Shown: positions 5,882 through 15,408 of the stretch, one piece after another
Layout: every line of letters begins with the position of its first letter
Position numbering within the stretch: position 1 is the stretch's first letter
Source: Deltaproteobacteria bacterium
Lineage (GTDB): Bacteria > Myxococcota_A > Polyangia > Nannocystales > Nannocystaceae
Assembly: GCA_003696955.1 (NCBI GenBank)
Contig: RFGU01000083.1
Location: 1-64,000 of the forward strand
Reading direction: 5' to 3'
DNA: 64,000 nt
Program-made: the position numbers and the translations under genes
The notes under the pieces: model-generated
Seen by the model: the letters and a program-made list of their open reading frames with translations, nothing else
What the model was told of the DNA's origin: nothing
Database searches by the model: none

Positions 5882-7093
5882 TCACGGGGCCGGTGCAGGG
5901 GACGGCGGTTCGGTGGAGGGGGGGCCGCTCCGTGCGGCCGCCCGGGGGCGTGTCGATGCCGCGGCCTCGTGCGGCTGTGGAACCGGCGTCGGCCCCGGAG
6001 GGGTGTAGGGCGGCAAGGTGACCTGGCGGGCGGCCCGCACGACGACCTCGAACACGTCCTTCTTGCGGCGCTGGTCGTGGTAGTGCTGGACCGGACCACG
6101 CACGACGACGTACTCGCCCACGTAGTCGGCGATGCCGCTGTCCTCGAAGGCCAAGGGATCGACGAACACCACGGGCAGGTCCTCGCCACGGCGATGGGCG
6201 AGGAAGACCAGCACCAGGTCGCCCTTGGTCTCCACGATCTTGGCGACGGTGCCGAGCACCGAGACGTCCTTGCCCTCGAAGGCCGAAAGGCGCTCGAGGG
6301 CGCGGTGCCGGCCGAGCACGATGTGGTCGTCCCGGGTCTCGGCCTTGGATTCGAAGGCATCGACAAAGTCGCCCCGGGCGTACCACCAGGCAAGGCGCGC
6401 GTCGTAGTCGGGATAGTGCTGCTTGGAGGGATCCCAGATCCCACGGCCGGCGGCCCGAGCCTCGGCCATGGCGGCTTCGAACTCGCCGCGAAATCGGCGT
6501 GAATGGCCGTACTTGGGAAAGTAGGGCGCCATGCCCGCGCGCACGGCCTCGACGTTGTAGTGCAGCCGCTTGCCGTCCTTGACGACGAAGACGTACGACA
6601 GGATCCGCCCGTAGCGTCCGCGCAGTTCCTCCGGGTGATCGCGTTCGAGTTCCACGGTGTCGATGCCGGCGAAGAACGCCTCGGCGAAGTGCTTGGCCTC
6701 CTCGCCGAGGGGCGTTGCGATCTTCACCGGTCGGTTCGACTGCGCGGCCTTCTTGGCCAGGTAGACTTCCCATCCCTGATCGTAGAGCACCCGGTCGGAC
6801 TTCGACTTGAAGGTCTCCTCGGTGTCGATGGCCAGAAGGCGCAGGCTCGCATCGAGGCCTTCGACCTTGATCGTGTCGCCGTCGACGATCCCCTTCGGGG
6901 CCAAGCGGTAGGTGCCGATGACGACGCCGGGATCGGCCGCGAGCGCGGCATCGACGGCGGTGCGGTCGAATCGATACGATGGCTTCGGAGCCTTGGCCGG
7001 CGCGCCGGTGTCGCCCGAGCGCGGTCCGCACGCGGCGAGGAGTAGGGCTGCGCTCCATAGGGGCGCGGCCAAACGTCGTTTCGCACCGGGCAT
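5882..7093 (-). CDS. SNase-like nuclease lipoprotein with C-terminal OB-like domain
   Basis: 403 residues. Signal WSAALLLAACG fits a lipoprotein. Residues about 60-210 hold a second nuclease domain of the staphylococcal-nuclease family, longer than the classical one. IVDGDTIKV, LRLLAIDTEETF and YGRILSYVFV supply the expected catalytic Asp, Arg, Asp, Glu and Arg. Residues about 265-355 look like an OB or tRNA-binding-type beta domain (VSVLGTVAKIVETKGDLVLV). A Pro-rich tail closes the protein. This is the first gene of the nuclease operon; its stop is 28 nt before the LTD gene start. It is divergent from the riboswitch-controlled gene to the right. Predicted activity is extracytoplasmic DNA or RNA cleavage. 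Confidence 0.85.
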   Translation of the reverse strand: MPGAKRRLAAPLWSAALLLAACGPRSGDTGAPAKAPKPSYRFDRTAVDAALAADPGVVIGTYRLAPKGIVDGDTIKVEGLDASLRLLAIDTEETFKSKSDRVLYDQGWEVYLAKKAAQSNRPVKIATPLGEEAKHFAEAFFAGIDTVELERDHPEELRGRYGRILSYVFVVKDGKRLHYNVEAVRAGMAPYFPKYGHSRRFRGEFEAAMAEARAAGRGIWDPSKQHYPDYDARLAWWYARGDFVDAFESKAETRDDHIVLGRHRALERLSAFEGKDVSVLGTVAKIVETKGDLVLVFLAHRRGEDLPVVFVDPLAFEDSGIADYVGEYVVVRGPVQHYHDQRRKKDVFEVVVRAARQVTLPPYTPPGPTPVPQPHEAAASTRPRAAARSGPPSTEPPSPAPAP

Positions 7094-7162: not shown

Positions 7163-7191
7163 TTGACACGTGCGGAATCGAGCGATAGGGA
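7163..7191 (+). promoter_or_regulatory. Sigma-70-type promoter of the rightward cobalamin riboswitch
   Basis: A perfect -35 TTGACA (7163-7168), a 17-nt spacer and a -10-like TAGGGA (7186-7191). The predicted transcription start near 7198-7200 coincides with the first base of the riboswitch P1 stem, which supports the assignment. Confidence 0.7.
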
Positions 7192-7199
7192 TCCGCCCG

Positions 7200-7361
7200 C
7201 CGGCGGTCCCGCCCTCGGCGGGCCAAGAGGGAACGCGGTGTGAATCCGCGACTGCCCCGCAGCGGTGAGCAGGAACGAACGCCGAACCACGCGGCACTGG
7301 GACGATCTCCTGGGAAGCCTCGGCAAGTAGGTCGCCTGCGAGTCCGAAGACCTGCCGCCGG
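7200..7361 (+). promoter_or_regulatory. Cobalamin riboswitch (rightward)
   Basis: Hallmark cobalamin-aptamer blocks occur in order: GGGAACGCGGTGTGAATCC, then GACTGCCCCGCAGCGGTGAG, a CTGGGAAG block, and GCCTGCGAGTCCGAAGACC. The ends pair perfectly (CCGGCGG at 7200-7206 with CCGCCGG at 7355-7361), giving P1. Such elements sense adenosylcobalamin or a related corrinoid and normally repress uptake or B12-independent genes. It is followed after 110 nt by a single lipoprotein gene, so that gene is predicted to be induced when B12 is scarce. Confidence 0.95.
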
Positions 7362-7471
7362 CCCGTGCACGACGCACGGATCGCCCACGGCCTCGAGGGA
7401 GGGCCCGGGCGCCACGCGCAGGGTGCGTGTGTCGTTTCCGGGCTCGTCGGGCCAGCGAGAAAGGAACGACC

Positions 7472-8173
7472 ATGCACACCATCCGAGACCTCGTTCACAT
7501 CACCAAGACTGCGTCGGGCCGGATCGCCCGCCGTCCCCTCCTGCTTTCGACCGCGCTCGCGTTGAGCGTCGGAGCGTGCTCCGGCGACGACGACGGGACG
7601 GCCGGAGGCACGACCGGCACCACCTCGGGCACGACGGCCGCCTCGACGTCCTCCACGGCGACCACCGGCACGACGGGCACCACCGCGACCACGACCACGG
7701 ACGCCTCGTCCACCGACACGGGCACCGGCGACACCGGAGCATCGGACACGGGCACCGGCGATACGGGCACCGGCGACACCGGAGCATCGGACACGGGCAC
7801 CGGCGATACGGGCACGGGCGGCGTGGGCCTCGAGATCGCCGGCATGTACGTCGACGAATGGGGCACGAGCCACGATATCGACGAGAGCACGTGGACCATG
7901 GACTTCGGTGGCGGCACGCCCGCCGTGTTCCACGTGCTGTCCTACGACAACGACGCGGACTTCCTCGTCGCGCGCAACGACGACGCCAACGACTACAACC
8001 CGGGCCTCTACAGCCGCTTCGATTGGACGTACGCGATGGGCGCGCTCTGGTACTGCCAGACGGTCTTCGATGCGCCCACGGCCCAGGACGCCGAGAACGC
8101 GCCGCCGGCGGACGCCACGGACCCGTCGACCGGCGGTTGCGGCGGCTTCGCCTGGACGAACCTCACTCCCTGA
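7472..8173 (+). CDS. Riboswitch-controlled surface lipoprotein of unknown family
   Basis: 233 residues from the ATG at 7472, preceded by AGAAAGGAACGACC, which holds a good ribosome site. The signal ends LALSVGAC. Residues about 35-115 are a low-complexity Thr/Gly/Ser/Asp linker. The remaining about 115 residues form a compact domain with many aromatic residues (MYVDEWGTSH, STWTMDFGGG, YSRFDWTYAMGALWYCQ) and two Cys that could form a disulphide. I do not recognise the domain. It is the only gene under the rightward cobalamin riboswitch, and its 3-prime end overlaps the btuD-like gene tail-to-tail by 11 bp. A role in capturing B12 or another corrinoid at the cell surface is inferred from regulation alone. 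Confidence 0.85.
   Translation: MHTIRDLVHITKTASGRIARRPLLLSTALALSVGACSGDDDGTAGGTTGTTSGTTAASTSSTATTGTTGTTATTTTDASSTDTGTGDTGASDTGTGDTGTGDTGASDTGTGDTGTGGVGLEIAGMYVDEWGTSHDIDESTWTMDFGGGTPAVFHVLSYDNDADFLVARNDDANDYNPGLYSRFDWTYAMGALWYCQTVFDAPTAQDAENAPPADATDPSTGGCGGFAWTNLTP
7730..7819 (+). repeat. 45-bp tandem repeat in lipoprotein linker
   Basis: A 45-bp unit starting GACACCGGAGCATCGG occurs at 7730-7774 and again at 7775-7819 with only minor difference at the end. It encodes two copies of a 15-residue Asp/Thr/Gly/Ser stretch in the linker, so it probably sets stalk length. Confidence 0.8.
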
Positions 8174-8984
8174 CGGGCGCCGCCGGCCCGGCTCCGCCGT
8201 CGCTTCGTCCCGCGGGATGGAACGCGATGGCGTCGGGCCAAAGGCGCGTCCGAACGCCGTACACCCGGTCGAGCACCTCGGGGACCAGCACCTCGTGCGG
8301 GGACCCGAGGTGCACGGCGGGGGCGTCCGGGCCCCCGAGGCAGACCACGCAGCTTGCAATCCTGCGGGCGAGTTCGAGATCGTGGATCGCCACGAGCAGC
8401 GCTCGGCCGTCATGCGCCAGCGCCGCGAGGAGATCGGCGATGGCGAGGGCGTGGGCGGGGTCGAGGGCGGTCGTGGGCTCGTCGAGGACGAGGATCCGCG
8501 CCTGCGTGGCGAGCAGACGGGCGATGCGGGCCAACTGGAACTCGCCGCCGCTCAGGGAGAAGACGCCCCGGGCCGCCAGGTGCTCGATCCCGGCCCGCCG
8601 CAAGGCTCGGCGGACGGCCTCGTCCCCGTTCGGGTCGGTGCCCAGGGGCCACCTGCGGTGGGGGTGTCGGCCCAGGGCCACGAGGTCGCGGACGGTGAGG
8701 TCCTCGGTAAGGGGGACCCGTTGCGGAAGGTACGCCAGGGCCCGCGCACGATCCCGTGGCGGCCATGTGTGGACGGGAGCCTCGTCGAGGCGAACCGTGC
8801 CCGCCGCCGGCGGCCCCAGGCCCGCCGCGATGCGCAGGAGCGTGCTCTTGCCGGCACCGTTGGGGCCGACGACGCAGGTGATCGTGCCGGGCTCGCAGCA
8901 CACGGTGAGTCCGGCCGCCAACCGCCTTGGGCCGGCGGCGGCCGGCACCTCCACGGTCACCTCCTCGAAGGACAGTCGGCTCAC
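8163..8984 (-). CDS. btuD: ABC transporter ATPase, BtuD-like
   Basis: ATP-hydrolysing subunit of a FecCD/BtuCD-type importer, 273 residues from a GTG at 8984 that overlaps the permease stop by 4 bp. Walker A GPNGAGKST, Q-loop LAYLPQRVPL, signature LSGGEFQLAR, Walker B ILVLDEPTTALD and the switch His (VAIHDLEL) are all present, so it should be active. It is the last gene of the operon led by a cobalamin riboswitch, hence the BtuD reading rather than an iron-siderophore ATPase, which has the same sequence features. The stop region overlaps the convergent lipoprotein gene by 11 bp. Confidence 0.88.
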   Translation of the reverse strand: MSRLSFEEVTVEVPAAAGPRRLAAGLTVCCEPGTITCVVGPNGAGKSTLLRIAAGLGPPAAGTVRLDEAPVHTWPPRDRARALAYLPQRVPLTEDLTVRDLVALGRHPHRRWPLGTDPNGDEAVRRALRRAGIEHLAARGVFSLSGGEFQLARIARLLATQARILVLDEPTTALDPAHALAIADLLAALAHDGRALLVAIHDLELARRIASCVVCLGGPDAPAVHLGSPHEVLVPEVLDRVYGVRTRLWPDAIAFHPAGRSDGGAGPAAPVRE

Positions 8985-9976
8985 GCAAGCCACCCCCGCG
9001 CCGCGCGGCGCAACATCCACAGGAAGATCGGGGCGCCGACCAGGCTGGTGGCGACCCCGGGGGGGATCGAGACGGCGAGCAGGCTGCGTGCGGCCGCATC
9101 CACGCCCACGAGACCGGCAGCCCCCCAAAGGGCCGACAGCACGATCAAGGGACCGTGGCGAGGTCCGGCCCGCAGGCGGACGAGGTGGGGCACCACGAGA
9201 CCCACGAAGCCGATGGCCCCGGCGACGGCCGTCGCGGCACCGGCGAGCAGGGCTACGGTCGCCACGGCGAAAAGGCCCGTCCGTCGCGGCGTGACGCCGA
9301 GGGAGAGGGCGGCCTCGTGGCCGAGGGTGAGCACGTCGAGGTCACCGCGAAGCATCCAAGCCAAGACGATGCCGGCGGTCACGGGACCAGCGGCCAGGGC
9401 TACGTGGTCGTAGCTGCGGGACTCGAAGCTCCCCATGAGCCAGGATAGGACCTTGCGCGCCAGATCCCATTGCTCGGTGGACAGGGCGAGCACCAGGGTC
9501 GAAAGCGCCGACGCGAAGGCGCCCAGGGCAATTCCGGACAGCAGCAAGGTGGCGGGGCTCGCCCCCGGACGCCCCACGCCCAGGAGGAGGACGAGTCCGA
9601 CGGCCACGCCCGCTGCTGCCGCCGCCGGAACCACCATGGGGCCGTGGGCGTCGAGGCCGAGGGCCACGGCACACGTGGCCGAAAACGCCGCGCAGGCCCC
9701 AAGGCCGAGCACGCCGGGGCCCGCCATGGGGTTGCGAAAGAGCCCCTGGGTCACGGCTCCGGCGGCACCGAGGGCTGCGCCCACGAGGGAGGCGACGAGG
9801 ACCCTGGGCATGCGAAGCTCCCAGACGACGGCTGCGGCCAGCCCATCGGCACCGGGGCCGGACCACAGGGCGTGCAGGGCGTCCATGGCCCGGATCCGCG
9901 AGGGGCCCACGGCGAGTCCCGCGAGGGCGGCGGCGAGCCAGACCGCCGACGCCACGGCGACGCGCCGTCCGGTCAC
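8981..9976 (-). CDS. btuC: FecCD/BtuC-type ABC permease
   Basis: Inner-membrane permease of about 331 residues, normal for the family, with around ten hydrophobic helices. Family hallmarks include LRMPRVLVASLVGAALG, QGLFRNPMAGPGVLG, GAIGFVGLVVPHLVR and PPGVATSLVGAPIF. The GTG start at 9976 overlaps the upstream binding-protein stop by 4 bp, and its own stop overlaps the ATPase start by 4 bp, so the three importer subunits should be made in step. Substrate cobalamin is inferred from the riboswitch heading the operon; the fold alone would fit haem or siderophores too. Confidence 0.88.
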   Translation of the reverse strand: MTGRRVAVASAVWLAAALAGLAVGPSRIRAMDALHALWSGPGADGLAAAVVWELRMPRVLVASLVGAALGAAGAVTQGLFRNPMAGPGVLGLGACAAFSATCAVALGLDAHGPMVVPAAAAAGVAVGLVLLLGVGRPGASPATLLLSGIALGAFASALSTLVLALSTEQWDLARKVLSWLMGSFESRSYDHVALAAGPVTAGIVLAWMLRGDLDVLTLGHEAALSLGVTPRRTGLFAVATVALLAGAATAVAGAIGFVGLVVPHLVRLRAGPRHGPLIVLSALWGAAGLVGVDAAARSLLAVSIPPGVATSLVGAPIFLWMLRRAARGWLA

Positions 9977-10890
9977 CTCGCCTCCACCTCCCCAGGGGGA
10001 ACGATGCCGTCGCAGGCGGCGGCGAGGCGCGCGGCCAGGTCGACGAGGCCGAATCCCGTGGCGTGCAGCACGGGATCGGGCACGGCGACCACCCGGTCGT
10101 GGCGCACGGCATCGAGCCGGTCGAAGCCGGGAAGCGCGACGAAGGCGGCCACGGCAGCGCCGCAGTCCTCGCCGCACGGGATCACGACGGCGTCCGGCGA
10201 CCAGTCGAGCAGGCGCTCCGGATCCACCTTGGCGTGCCCCGCAATCGCGGCCGCCGCCGCCGCGTTCACCCAACCGGTGTGCCGCGCGGCCTCGTCGAAG
10301 GTGGTGCCGCTGCCCGCGACGACCCCCGCCGCGTAGGCGACGATGGACGGCGGGTCGATCCCGCGCACACGACCATGGGATGCGAAGGCCGTCTCGAAGC
10401 GGGCGACGAGTTCGCGCCCGGCCTCGGGGGCCTCGGCGCGGGCGGCGATGGCCTCGACCGAGCGGCGGTAGGCCGCGGTTCCGGTCATGGGCGGCAGGAC
10501 GAGAAGTTCGAGCCCGAGGTGGGTGAGGCGCTCGCGGACCTCCGGTGCCGTGAAGGTGGCGACGATCACCACGTCGGGCTCGAGGGCGACGAGGGCCTCG
10601 CTGCCCGTGGCGATCCGCGGAACCTCGGCGGGCCAGAGGTTCGGCCGCAGGCTGTAACGCGGATCGTCGGCGAGGGAACTGACGGCCACGACGCGGTCGC
10701 GAACCTGCGGGCCGAGGTCCCACAGGATCTCGTCCGAAAGGAGGGTCTGGGAGGCGAACTTGGTGCCGCCGCCTCCGCGCGGGGCGGTGGCGGTTCGCTC
10801 GGAGGTGCCCGCGGGCTCCGCCGACCGACCGCAGGCGGCGGCGAGTAATAGGGCCGCAAGGGATCGGAGGACGTCGCGGCGCCGGGTCAT
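9973..10890 (-). CDS. btuF: Periplasmic cobalamin-binding lipoprotein, BtuF-like
   Basis: 305 residues from an ATG at 10890 that overlaps the previous stop by 4 bp. The N-terminus TRRRDVLRSLAALLLAAAC combines a twin-arginine-like motif with a lipobox, so a membrane-anchored periplasmic protein is expected. The body matches BtuF/FhuD-type class III binding proteins: VVAVSSLADDPRYS, ALVALEPDVVIVA, LLDWSPDAVVIPCG and VPDPVLHATGFGLVDLAARL. It hands substrate to the permease encoded next. Cobalamin specificity comes from the riboswitch context. A CGEDC pair near residue 235 is unusual and might form a disulphide. Confidence 0.85.
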   Translation of the reverse strand: MTRRRDVLRSLAALLLAAACGRSAEPAGTSERTATAPRGGGGTKFASQTLLSDEILWDLGPQVRDRVVAVSSLADDPRYSLRPNLWPAEVPRIATGSEALVALEPDVVIVATFTAPEVRERLTHLGLELLVLPPMTGTAAYRRSVEAIAARAEAPEAGRELVARFETAFASHGRVRGIDPPSIVAYAAGVVAGSGTTFDEAARHTGWVNAAAAAAIAGHAKVDPERLLDWSPDAVVIPCGEDCGAAVAAFVALPGFDRLDAVRHDRVVAVPDPVLHATGFGLVDLAARLAAACDGIVPPGEVEAR

Positions 10891-11798
10891 GGCTGCTCCG
10901 TCGCGTGCACGGACGCGATCGCATCGAGGTCGAAACCACCGGCCGCTCCGCCGCACCACGTCTCGTCCCCGTAGTGCTCGGCGGTCCGGTCGACGATGCG
11001 CACGTATCGTGCGGAAGAAAGTCCCACGTCGGCCAGGTCGAAGGCGTCGCCGCCCGCCGCCGTGGGGTCGGTGGGATCGATCTGTGGGGCGTCGGGACCT
11101 GCGAACACGGGCGTTACGCCCGCGCATCCTTCGGGGGGGAAGGTCCCGTCCCCGCTCGGCGTGCACGGAAACGTGTGGAAGGTCCGGCCGTCGGCGCTGA
11201 CGGCCACCTCTCCGGGCTCGGTGAACGTCTCGGGGCCCTCGCCGATGACGAAGGGGTTCTCGAACACGATGAAGTCGGGACCCGGCCCGTCGACGATCCC
11301 CTCGCCGTCGAACGCAAGCACGATCCGGCCGCCGCATCCGAGGGACGCCACGTCCATGCCGCCGCCGGCCGCACCGCCCCCGACCGGTGGGCCGAGCACC
11401 ACGTCCGGCAGGGCGTCGTGCCCGAAGGAGACGCCGGCGGCCGGTTCGAAGCGAGCGACGCAGTCGGCGAAGGGGTCGCTTTCGATCTGCGGGTCGGGGC
11501 GACAAGGCGGGAGCATGCCGCCGGTGTCGCCCGTCGTCGCCCCGCTACCCGATCCCGTGCCCCCGCCCGATTCGGAGGTCCCGGCCGTCCCGTTTGCGCC
11601 CGTCGTCCCCGAACCCTCCGTCGCACCGTCGGTGCCGTCCGCCGACGTGCCGAAGGTCTCGCCCGGCGTGCCGGAGCTTCCGACCGTGTCCGGCATGGTG
11701 CCGCCGCCGGCCGTCGGGGTGCACGCCGGGGCGGAGCACGCCAGGAGCGTGGCGAGGAGGATGGGGTAGGGAGGAGTACGCTGGATCGTTGGATGCAT
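10887..11798 (-). CDS. Surface lipoprotein of the B12 operon, unassigned beta-rich family
   Basis: 303 residues. Signal ILLATLLACSAPAC is lipoprotein-like and is followed by a Gly/Thr/Ser linker to about residue 95. The domain after it is rich in beta-forming stretches with recognisable signatures: PDFIVFENPF, EVAVSADGRTFHTFPC, FDLADVGLSSARYVRIVD and GGFDLDAIASV. I have seen this pattern in secreted proteins called only cell-surface protein; I cannot name a function. It lies between the beta-propeller gene (13-nt gap) and the binding-protein gene (4-bp overlap) in the riboswitch-led operon. A role as an accessory corrinoid binder or scaffold at the outer membrane is inferred. Confidence 0.82.
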   Translation of the reverse strand: MHPTIQRTPPYPILLATLLACSAPACTPTAGGGTMPDTVGSSGTPGETFGTSADGTDGATEGSGTTGANGTAGTSESGGGTGSGSGATTGDTGGMLPPCRPDPQIESDPFADCVARFEPAAGVSFGHDALPDVVLGPPVGGGAAGGGMDVASLGCGGRIVLAFDGEGIVDGPGPDFIVFENPFVIGEGPETFTEPGEVAVSADGRTFHTFPCTPSGDGTFPPEGCAGVTPVFAGPDAPQIDPTDPTAAGGDAFDLADVGLSSARYVRIVDRTAEHYGDETWCGGAAGGFDLDAIASVHATEQP

Positions 11799-11811
11799 GG
11801 CCGTTCGCGTG

Positions 11812-13023
11812 TCAGGGAAGCGCCACGAGGGCGTAGGGGGGAAGGCCCGTGGACACCGCCTCGCCCATGGGGACCGGCGGGTCCGTGCGGAGATCGAAGC
11901 GGAGCAGCCCGAACGCTCCGGGGTTCGTGCTGCCGTAGTAGAGGACGTCGCCGGCCACCTCGAGGGTGCGCTCCACGGAGTCGAAGCCGGTCGCGAAGAC
12001 CTCCGGGATCGCCGGCGTGGCGCCGTCGAGGCCTACGCGATGGAGGCGCACCTCGTCGAAGTCCTCCGTGTACGCGGCGACGTAGGCCATCTCGCCGCTT
12101 GCATCGACGTCGAAGGACTGGGGGAGGAAGCGATGGTCGATCCCGGCCTGCGCGAAGGCGGTGTCGGGCACCGCCCACGCGGCGGTCCCGGTCGTCAGGT
12201 CGATGCGCTCGATCCCCGTCGTGAGCACCAAGAGGGTGCGCCCGGTGGGATCCGAGGGGTCGCGGCGGATCTGTTTGGGGAAGGGGCCGAGGAGGTCGAT
12301 GCGCCCCGGCAGGAGGGTGCGCGTGGTCATGTCGATGGCCACGAGACGGTCCTCGCCCCGGGGGGCGAAGCCGGCGTCGGCGTCGAGGCGCCCGAGGGAG
12401 ACGACCAGAACCGACCCGCAGGCCACCGCGTGGCTCGCCTCGGGGTTGCCGTCCTCGTCGGCGAGCGCCGACAGGTCGATGCGGTCCTCCCACGCGACGG
12501 CCGCGGGCGCCGAGGGATCGACGACGCCGACGGCCGGGATCCCGAAGAACGTCACGAAGAGCTTGCCGTCGGGACCCGCCGCGATGGCGTGGGGGTTCGT
12601 GCTCGGACCTTGCGAATCCGCAAGCGGGATCTCCGCCACCGACGCGTAGCCGTCCTCGCGGTCGAGGATCTCGAGCCGGTCGTACATGTAGCGATGCACC
12701 ACGTAGAGGTAGCGGTCGCCGAGGGACGGCGGCGCGAAGGGGATCGCGTCCGTCGAACCGAGGGCCACGTCGGCGGAGACCTCGAAGGGATCGAGCCGGG
12801 CGATGGAGACGGCCCCGGTGGCGAAGTCGGTGGTCGTGACGGCGAGGCCCGACGGGGCCGGCGGGTCGAGGTCGCACGGACCGTCGATCTCGGCCGACCA
12901 CACGTCGGGATCGTCGTCGCCGGTGCCGGCCGTGCCGGTCGCGCGATCGAGGGGGGCAGGCAGGCAGGCCGTCGCCGCCGTGAAGGCGGCGACGCAGGCG
13001 GGGACGAGGCCGATGCGTCTCAT
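11812..13023 (-). CDS. Beta-propeller lipoprotein beside BtuB (BtuG-like candidate)
   Basis: 403 residues from an ATG at 13023 that overlaps the receptor stop by 4 bp. N-terminus MRRIGLVPACVAAFTAATAC is a lipoprotein-type signal with a weak lipobox. Six or seven YncE-like blades can be traced by repeated patterns such as GDRYLYVVHRY, NPHAIAAGPDGKLFVTFF, RLVAIDMTTRTLLPG, MAYVAAYTEDFDEVRLHRV and GDVLYYGSTNPGAFGLLRF. In Bacteroidetes a seven-bladed surface propeller lipoprotein, BtuG, caps BtuB and captures B12 with very high affinity. Position and architecture here match that arrangement, in a different phylum. Homology to BtuG rather than convergence is not shown. Confidence 0.85.
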   Translation of the reverse strand: MRRIGLVPACVAAFTAATACLPAPLDRATGTAGTGDDDPDVWSAEIDGPCDLDPPAPSGLAVTTTDFATGAVSIARLDPFEVSADVALGSTDAIPFAPPSLGDRYLYVVHRYMYDRLEILDREDGYASVAEIPLADSQGPSTNPHAIAAGPDGKLFVTFFGIPAVGVVDPSAPAAVAWEDRIDLSALADEDGNPEASHAVACGSVLVVSLGRLDADAGFAPRGEDRLVAIDMTTRTLLPGRIDLLGPFPKQIRRDPSDPTGRTLLVLTTGIERIDLTTGTAAWAVPDTAFAQAGIDHRFLPQSFDVDASGEMAYVAAYTEDFDEVRLHRVGLDGATPAIPEVFATGFDSVERTLEVAGDVLYYGSTNPGAFGLLRFDLRTDPPVPMGEAVSTGLPPYALVALP

Positions 13024-15125
13024 CCGCCCCGACCTCCCCGGGGGAGCGTCACGGCCGCCGAGAACCAAAGGCTCCGTCCGGGCAACGGGTAGCCGAGGAC
13101 GTCGGCGATGGGCACGCGGATGGGCCCGTCGAGGTTGTCGACGGGAGGGCGGACGTACGCGGTGCGACGGTCGGCGACGTTGCGGACGGACAGGGACATG
13201 ACCAGGCAACAACCGGCCGCGACTCCGAAGGTGATGGCGTGGAAGATCCGCGGCGGCAGCACGTAGCGGCCGCTGGGATCGAGGTTCGTGGCCGCGACGA
13301 TCTCGGCTTCGTAGCCCACCCGCGGAACGAGCAGGACGCCGTCGACGACGGTCTTGGGTGCGACGTCGAGGGCGAACGTCCCCTGGTGGGCCGGCCGCCC
13401 GGGGAGGGGGTTGCCGTGCCGCGCGGGATCCTGGTCGAGGTTCACGGTGTGGAGGAAGGTGTAGGCGGCGTGTGTCTCGAGCGTGCCGCCGAGGAGCCGT
13501 CCGTCGAGTTGGGCCTCGGCGCCGGCGACGTGGGCCCCCGGCACGTTCTCGGCGCGGGTGACGAAGCCTGCCTGCACCCAGGTGATGAGATCGCGGGCCC
13601 GGGTGTAGAACCCGGCCGCGCTGCCGACGAGCCGCGTGCCCTCGCCCGCGTCCACGTCGAACGAAAGGCCCCCGTCCACGTTCCACCCCGTCTCCGGCAC
13701 GAGGTCGTCGTTGCCGACCGCGTAGCCCCGATCTCCGAACAGCTCGACGAAGGTGGGCGGCCGGAAGTAGCGTCCGGCGGTGGCGCGCAGGCGCACGGAA
13801 GGGTGGGGCCGCACCCGAAGGCCCGCCCGCGGCGTGTGGCCGAAGCGCATCGTGGTCGCGGCGTCGGTGGCCACGGGCGCCGTCGGGTCGCCTTCGAAAC
13901 GGCTTTCGAGGGCTTCGATCCGATCACCGATCGCCAGGACCCACCGGCCGTCGACGAAGGACTGCTCGAGCTCGATGCCGGTGCCGAACCGCAGTCGGAC
14001 GTTGCGTGGCGCTCGGCCCGGCGCGGCGAGACGGTCCTCGATGCGGGTCGTCTCGACGCGCCCGTCGCCAGAGAGTTCTACGAAGGCACCGCGCCAGGCC
14101 GCCAGCCGCGTGGTCGCGCGCCCGAAGGTGTCGGTGCTCGCCTGCACCTGGTCGTTGCGGCCGAGCCCCACGCTGCCCTCCGGGTCGCGGAAGGTCCGCA
14201 GGCTTCCGCGCGCCGAGAGCCGGGCCCCCACGGTGGATCCGGGCCGGGGCAGGGGGGCGTCGGCGCCCGCGACGACCCACCCGAGGCGTTCGCTCTCCCG
14301 CGCGCCGTCCCATCGTGCGCCGGCGGGGCCGGGGATCCCGCGGTCCCGGATCTGTCCGATGGGCGTGAGGAACCATCGCGCCCTGCGCCGGCGTCCGGCG
14401 ACGGCCAGGCGGGCCGAGATCCGGCCGTAGTCGTTGTTGCGCCGCGTTCGCGTGCGATCGTCGAACCGGTCGTGGGGCGCGCCCGGGTCGAGGTACGGAA
14501 AGTCGCCCTCGGCGCCGGCCACCGCAGCCGCGGCGGTGAGGGTGGGGCCTTTTCCTCCGATCCTGCGGCGCACGCTTCCCCGAAGTTCGTAGGCGCCGAA
14601 CGACCCCAGGCCGAGGCGTATGCGGTCGGCGAAGGTGCCGTTCATGTCGGACGAAAGACGCAGGGCACCGCCGATGGCGGCCCCGCCGTAGCGCACCGGG
14701 ACGTAGCCGCGGTGGACGACGGCCAGGTCCACCACGTCGGCCGACAGCATGGACAGATCGACGCTACCGCCGACGGCGTCCTCGACCGGTACGCCCTCGT
14801 AGAGCACCTGCACCTGGGCCGCGGTCGAGCCCCGCACGGAGATCGCCGTGAAGCGGCCGAGACCGCCGAAGCTGCGCACGTAGACCCCCGCAAGGCCCCG
14901 CAGGGCCTCGGTCCACGCGTCCGCCGGCCGGTCGCGGGTGGCGTGGTCCACGTCCACGGCCGCCGTGAACCCGACGGCGCGCGCGTCCTGGCGGGCGATG
15001 CGCTCCAGACGATCCCGCCCGGCCCGCTGACGGACCACGGTTCGGTACGTGGGCGCCCCGTCGTCGTCCGAGGCCGGCTCGGCGGCCGACGGAGACGGCG
15101 TGGCCGTCCGCGGTGGAGCGGCCAC
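13020..15125 (-). CDS. btuB: TonB-dependent outer-membrane receptor, BtuB-like
   Basis: About 701 residues from the GTG at 15125. It has a TonB-box-like segment (PTYRTVVRQ), a plug at about 45-150 (VYVRSFGGLGRFTAISVRGS, VQVLYEGVPVEDA, GGAAIGGALRLSS) and a long barrel with FRPPTFVELFGD and the PETGWNVDGGLSF region. The cobalamin riboswitch directly upstream makes vitamin B12 the likely ligand. In-frame sequence upstream of the GTG reads RLRREVLAIVLLATCLAGA, an excellent signal peptide, yet no ATG, GTG or TTG lies between it and the in-frame stop at 15228-15230. The true start is thus either non-canonical (for example CTG at 15176) or hidden by a sequence error. Family call firm, N-terminus unresolved. 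Confidence 0.88.
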   Translation of the reverse strand: MAAPPRTATPSPSAAEPASDDDGAPTYRTVVRQRAGRDRLERIARQDARAVGFTAAVDVDHATRDRPADAWTEALRGLAGVYVRSFGGLGRFTAISVRGSTAAQVQVLYEGVPVEDAVGGSVDLSMLSADVVDLAVVHRGYVPVRYGGAAIGGALRLSSDMNGTFADRIRLGLGSFGAYELRGSVRRRIGGKGPTLTAAAAVAGAEGDFPYLDPGAPHDRFDDRTRTRRNNDYGRISARLAVAGRRRRARWFLTPIGQIRDRGIPGPAGARWDGARESERLGWVVAGADAPLPRPGSTVGARLSARGSLRTFRDPEGSVGLGRNDQVQASTDTFGRATTRLAAWRGAFVELSGDGRVETTRIEDRLAAPGRAPRNVRLRFGTGIELEQSFVDGRWVLAIGDRIEALESRFEGDPTAPVATDAATTMRFGHTPRAGLRVRPHPSVRLRATAGRYFRPPTFVELFGDRGYAVGNDDLVPETGWNVDGGLSFDVDAGEGTRLVGSAAGFYTRARDLITWVQAGFVTRAENVPGAHVAGAEAQLDGRLLGGTLETHAAYTFLHTVNLDQDPARHGNPLPGRPAHQGTFALDVAPKTVVDGVLLVPRVGYEAEIVAATNLDPSGRYVLPPRIFHAITFGVAAGCCLVMSLSVRNVADRRTAYVRPPVDNLDGPIRVPIADVLGYPLPGRSLWFSAAVTLPRGGRGG

Positions 15126-15212
15126 CTGGGTGCCGACGGCACCCGCGAGACATGTGGCGAGTAGGACGATGGCCAGAACCTCCCGTCTGAGCCGGTTCGT
15201 CGATCCCCGAGG

Positions 15213-15408
15213 GTCCGGTCTCCTGGCTTACGGGTCGTCCTCCGGCGGCGCCTTCCCCGGCTCGCAGGCCGAGTGGCATGGTTGCCGCCTTCGTCGCCGC
15301 TCACAGTGGCGGGAGCCGCGTCGGATTTGCACCGACTTCCCTGCGGGGCGCCAAGGGCCCCGCGACCTTCGGGGCGAAGGTGGGCTGTGGGGCTTTTTCC
15401 TCCCGGAC
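15213..15408 (-). promoter_or_regulatory. Cobalamin riboswitch (leftward)
   Basis: Read on the minus strand, the cobalamin aptamer core is complete: GGGAAGTCGGTGCAAATCCG, CCCGCCACTGTGAGCGG, AACCATGCCACT, GGGGAAGGC and the terminal AAGCCAGGAGACC. The AACCATGCCACT block belongs to the form that usually binds adenosylcobalamin. A possible P1 pairs GTCCGG (15403-15408) with CCGGAC (15213-15218); outer limits are approximate. The aptamer ends about 30-40 nt before the receptor coding sequence, so control of translation start is plausible. It should switch the six-gene uptake operon. Confidence 0.95.

Follow-up and report, generated by a model that had tools for sequence, protein, structure and literature searches.

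The closest described systems are the btu loci of Bacteroides thetaiotaomicron, in which cobalamin riboswitches precede the gene for a TonB-dependent receptor (PMC10404256, PMC8941943, PMC6143338). One of the Bacteroides proteins, BtuG1, carries a domain homologous to BtuH (PMC10404256), and residues Asn399 and Phe401 of BtuH2 contact B12 (PMC8941943). B12 is also bound by BtuJ/DUF4465 lipoproteins, which are riboswitch-linked, surface-located and beta-rich (PMC12751083, PMC13398666). The island described here resembles the B. thetaiotaomicron loci in having cobalamin riboswitches, one of them before a TonB-dependent receptor gene, and the two have in common a propeller-type lipoprotein beside the receptor, a lipoprotein with a BtuH-type domain and an ABC importer.

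The window, i.e., the whole stretch of DNA analyzed, is 64,000 nt in length. The island consists of a left gene, termed LP (+ strand), and a six-gene minus-strand operon, which are located between two inward-facing cobalamin riboswitches. The left-arm aptamer (positions 7187–7373, + strand) matches RF00174 with 116.1 bits (E = 2.1e-28, model positions 1–189), and the right-arm aptamer (15217–15341, - strand) matches with 92.2 bits (E = 1.5e-21, model positions 46–168), where the Rfam gathering threshold is 31.5 bits. Outer P1/P2-like strands are also present in the right aptamer, as judged by eye. There are no RF00174 matches beyond these two in the organism's own 4.36-Mb draft genome. Two aptamers that face inward and enclose seven genes had been proposed in the initial annotation, as had a B12-uptake island with both arms behind cobalamin riboswitches; the RF00174 matches, together with Pfam matches of the operon genes, bear out both proposals. 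The divergent neighbor of the left riboswitch (5882–7093, - strand) encodes a protein of 403 aa that is lipoprotein-like, contains a staphylococcal-nuclease domain and has no evident link to B12.

The two arms appear to differ in expression platform, with a start-codon-sequestering hairpin on the left and a ribosome-binding-site region on the right. Folding of the left leader predicts a hairpin at positions 7421–7480 (+ strand) that would occlude the ribosome-binding site and ATG of LP. It has a delta G of -30.5 kcal/mol and a z score of -3.1, and 1 of 200 shuffled sequences was as good. The sister species retains the hairpin, although with indels, and a conserved hairpin that encloses both the ribosome-binding site and the start codon argues for translational control. 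On the right, a GAACC...GGGAGGTTC segment that includes the btuB ribosome-binding site (15176–15198, - strand) is conserved in the sister species and is a possible pairing partner of aptamer loop 5. Two other candidates were rejected: a hairpin ahead of btuB (z score of +1.0 when the strand is folded by itself), and a terminator-like site at 7413–7429, which is no better than shuffled sequence.

The operon has the order btuB-propeller-btuH-like-btuF-btuC-btuD and spans about 15170 down to 8163 on the minus strand, with intergenic gaps of -4 to +13 bp. The first gene, btuB (13020–15170, - strand), encodes a TonB-dependent receptor with Pfam plug and barrel domains; its score against the TonB-B12 receptor model TIGR01779 is 78.8 bits (E = 3.2e-22), with a cut-off of 599.7. 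No ATG, GTG or TTG is present ahead of the signal-peptide frame in window positions 15140–15216 (- strand). The most likely start, from sequence conservation, is the ATC at 15170–15168, which has GGGAGG 8 bases before it; both elements are conserved in the sister species (L034, 3100–3200). The sister species also has an in-frame GTG further upstream of its btuB, and the window is without that GTG.

The gene for a beta-propeller-like lipoprotein (11812–13023, - strand) is in the position of btuG and adjoins btuB in relatives as well. It has weak similarity to YncE/Vgb. The protein shows no match to BtuG by sequence, and PDB sequence searches gave nothing convincing, with no BtuG structure among the matches. 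In some family members (loci L079, L080 and L070) btuB is followed by two tandem propeller genes, which suggests duplication of the BtuG-position protein. The last three genes of the operon are btuF (9973–10890, - strand), encoding a periplasmic binding protein (PF01497, E = 4.4e-16), btuC (8981–9976, - strand), encoding a FecCD-type permease (PF01032, E = 1.3e-76), and btuD (8163–8984, - strand), encoding an ABC ATPase (PF00005, E = 8.9e-29). A binding protein, FecCD permease and ABC ATPase in one operon represent a BtuFCD architecture. The BtuC candidate scores 185.9 bits against the curated BtuC model, below the cut-off of 334; since the curated cut-offs for BtuC and BtuD are missed, the substrate of the importer is read from context. 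In its anatomy, the earlier description of the right arm as a receptor, two lipoproteins and BtuFCD is upheld.

The third gene of the operon encodes a BtuH-like, probably surface-located lipoprotein, termed H (10887–11798, - strand), which is related to the LIC_13355 lipoprotein family (NF033170, E = 1.9e-11, below the cut-off). A search of the whole PDB with the H family profile ranks BtuH2 (7BIZ) first and the H-domain of BtuG1 (8BLW_B) second, with E values of 0.02 and 0.25. This profile link is weak by itself but is supported by the fold match: the predicted structure of H (pLDDT 88) has 8BLW_B as the first match in a fold search (E = 6.6e-5, probability 1.00), and 7BIZ ranks 5 and 6 (E = 4.5e-3 and 6.0e-3). 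The modeled structure displays a BtuH-type C-terminal domain fold, and fold and profile comparison together assign H to the same group as the B12-binding domain of BtuH2/BtuG1 from Bacteroides. An N-x-F motif is invariant in the H family and aligns to computed BtuH2 positions Asn399/Phe401, the numbering offset of 100 being inferred from the construct; the alignment stops short of the other B12 contacts, Tyr510, Trp511, Trp577 and His476. By Pfam, H has neither N-terminal PKD/Ig-like domains, there being a low-complexity linker only, nor a match to DUF4465 (BtuJ). A search of plasmids for H found none.

The left gene, LP (7472–8173, + strand), encodes a protein with a signal peptide, the lipobox VGAC, a Thr/Gly/Ser/Asp-rich linker and a C-terminal domain of ~120 aa (7805–8170, + strand). 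The domain has no Pfam match, including DUF4465. The presence of a lipobox and the absence of a Pfam match agree with the description of the left arm as one novel lipoprotein. LP scores 17.8 bits (E = 0.003) against the LIC13354 exoprotein family model NF047669, short of the curated cut-off of 130 bits, and the same model matches 17 of 22 LP relatives, with a best E value of 3.2e-7. By sequence, LP is a distant relative of the LIC13354 family and not a member. The AlphaFold2 model of LP is beta-rich and confident (pLDDT 92.7). A Foldseek comparison of this model with the PDB gave nothing significant, the best match being avidin-like with an E value of 0.44, and TM scores reach at most about 0.43 among the matches listed; these weak avidin/lipocalin-like matches were not used as evidence. 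PDB sequence searches with LP gave nothing convincing. Since there is no significant match to a solved structure and no Pfam family, the ligand of LP is a guess by association.

That association is found throughout the phylum. A scan with the single LP protein matched only the sister species and one mislabeled contig; a profile search detects the domain in 100 of the 284 genomes taken from the phylum, representing 67 of 188 genera, often as a tandem array of 2–3 domains. Two cysteines are nearly invariant in the domain family, as are three Trp and one Phe, at about 87–98%. Of 66 LP loci, 54 have a same-strand RF00174 match upstream; these comprise 19 of the 22 relatives and 35 of the 44 phylum loci. 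The chance expectation is about 1e-4 to one in several thousand per gene, by the author's estimate, which assumes about two riboswitches per 4–12 Mb genome. The 12 remaining loci show no upstream riboswitch, and a permissive search of 8 of these found none. LP and H are same-strand neighbors in 26 of the 44 phylum loci, and locus L087 has riboswitch, LP (with two domains), H, BtuB and propeller in one row. The L087 contig, CAMASI010000039.1, is titled a Klebsiella pneumoniae MAG and is probably mislabeled or a contaminant. This linkage of LP to riboswitches and to H across the phylum was computed directly, as were both aptamers, the operon structure and the relationship of H to BtuH.

A need for B12 is indicated by the organism's own genome (94.5% complete), which encodes B12-dependent MetH, methylmalonyl-CoA mutase and an IcmF-like mutase/MeaB fusion. 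The fusion (G000:C250; L142, 3–4118) comprises a B12-binding domain, a MeaB GTPase and a mutase domain. De novo corrin synthesis requires several tetrapyrrole methylases, and the TP_methylase family has only two matches in this genome. As B12-dependent enzymes are present without a set of corrin-ring methyltransferases, uptake would be needed, and B12 auxotrophy is predicted, with some doubt from the incompleteness of the genome.

These data are best read as Bacteroides-style surface B12 scavenging by a predicted auxotroph, involving an accessory lipoprotein not previously described. The island would represent a complete riboswitch-controlled B12 scavenging system, with LP as a further surface lipoprotein that captures or hands over corrinoids; the probability of this is put at about 0.72. 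Both arms would be expressed when cytosolic B12 is scarce. The right operon would then provide BtuB, the propeller lipoprotein encoded at the btuG position, a B12-binding lipoprotein of BtuH-like type and a BtuFCD inner-membrane importer. LP, which we infer to be located at the surface and to bind B12 directly, would most likely act with the BtuH-like protein to capture corrinoids there, or to help in their handover, so that they reach BtuB. When B12 is plentiful, each riboswitch would block its own messenger, the left one probably by hiding the ribosome-binding site and start codon; this direction of control, off with B12, is assumed by analogy to known cobalamin riboswitches. Separate tuning of one capture protein, an idea of the initial annotation, is possible.

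The tandem arrays of LP domains are counted in favor of capture because binding modules do likewise, and with the nearly invariant aromatic residues they fit a ligand-binding module. These properties count against an alternative in which LP belongs to the B12-uptake system without binding B12, e.g., as a scaffold or docking partner that organizes complexes of the BtuH-like protein and BtuB-propeller, or in a vesicle role. So does the fact that LP is often solitary behind its own riboswitch, with no H nearby. Frequent pairing of LP with H, and with BtuB-propeller in L087, would suit a docking protein, as would a predicted fold unlike known B12 binders, and the B. thetaiotaomicron btu loci do hold accessory lipoproteins that have no capture role, e.g., BtuL in vesicle release (PMC12751083). 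A non-binding LP is considered rather unlikely, though not negligible. A lone LP gene in many relatives could also mean that LP is B12-regulated for another purpose, such as salvage of cobalt or corrinoid precursors, or a function when B12 runs out; in other bacteria, cobalamin riboswitches are known also to control cobalt transport and B12-independent isoenzymes. However, LP is a lipoprotein with a small, non-enzymatic-looking domain and has H, BtuB and the propeller as neighbors, which makes another purpose improbable.

The 3' ends of LP and btuD are tail-to-tail and overlap by 11 bp. The sister species, the one further member of the genus in the sample, has an identical tail-to-tail junction with an identical 11-bp overlap (L033); its btuB and the associated riboswitch are carried by a separate contig, L034. 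Among other genera of the family, LP is a solitary gene with a riboswitch of its own, and the btu operon, at another site, follows a different riboswitch. In the wider phylum the usual arrangement is a riboswitch-LP-H unit with LP leading, and in G023 one riboswitch is common to LP and H. Genome G162 (L121, 2124–3942) has LP and a BtuH-like gene in a divergent arrangement, with a separate cobalamin riboswitch for each gene; this mirrors the layout in the window. In the comparison of gene order across the family that the initial annotation had called for, the tail-to-tail junction thus recurs in one sister species, and LP is solitary in other genera. Because the LP and btu units are unlinked in other genera and the junction is found in one genus, the inward-facing island looks like a local rearrangement at the level of the genus, involving two units that can otherwise move freely, and the meaning first attached to the inward-facing layout itself is not sustained.

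The same junction bears on whether the convergent overlap is a regulatory device, with the arms damping each other by colliding transcripts or antisense RNA. The overlap is identical in both species and no terminator above chance is found between the two arms, as such a device would have it. However, the layout is present in only two species of one genus, and the two units are unlinked elsewhere, so the system works without it. A regulatory role of the layout was set aside as improbable. What is new about the locus is not its geometry but the LP family, which is undescribed before in B12 uptake, and the connection of this family with BtuH-like lipoproteins and with Leptospira.

Leptospira resembles the island in that LIC13354 is related to LP, distantly, and LIC_13355 is related to H. 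Two H proteins, from L087 and L093, score above the cut-off of the LIC_13355 family model NF033170 (126.7 and 138.6 bits; cut-off 120), and the L087 LP has 35.4 bits (E = 1.3e-8) against NF047669, below the cut-off. The Leptospira pair has consecutive locus tags, from which adjacency is read, and in rat-implanted dialysis chambers LIC13354 and LIC13355 are both induced, by 3.77- and 3.72-fold (PMC3953431). Leptospira differs in that none of the papers found proposes a B12 role for either protein. Published work describes LIC_13355 as binding laminin and plasminogen, with B12 unmentioned (PMC11891782), and cobalamin riboswitches in Leptospira are reported before btuB and cob genes, not before LIC13354/LIC_13355. 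By analogy with the island, it is predicted that LIC13354 and LIC_13355 may also serve B12 capture, and the pair, co-induced in a host-like setting, gains a directly testable role. The broader proposal, that LP represents a new and widespread class of B12-binding surface module with a fold new to corrinoid binders and that the Leptospira pair are vitamin scavengers filed as a hypothetical protein and an adhesin, is tentative and at present doubtful.

In comparison with Bacteroides, the island host is of a different phylum, H is without the PKD domains found in BtuH2, and the propeller is not recognizably a Bacteroides BtuG by sequence. LP has no detectable counterpart among BtuG, BtuH, BtuJ or other characterized B. 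thetaiotaomicron proteins. LP and H are similar to the BtuJ/DUF4465 lipoproteins in being riboswitch-linked, beta-rich and probably surface-located, but differ in having no DUF4465 match. LP adds a protein family whose only prior clue was the Leptospira "exoprotein" name, and its small domains are a place to search for a new mode of cobamide binding. Descriptions of surface B12 capture by dedicated lipoproteins come mainly from gut Bacteroidetes, and the locus studied here, with its relatives, points to the same strategy in Myxococcota.
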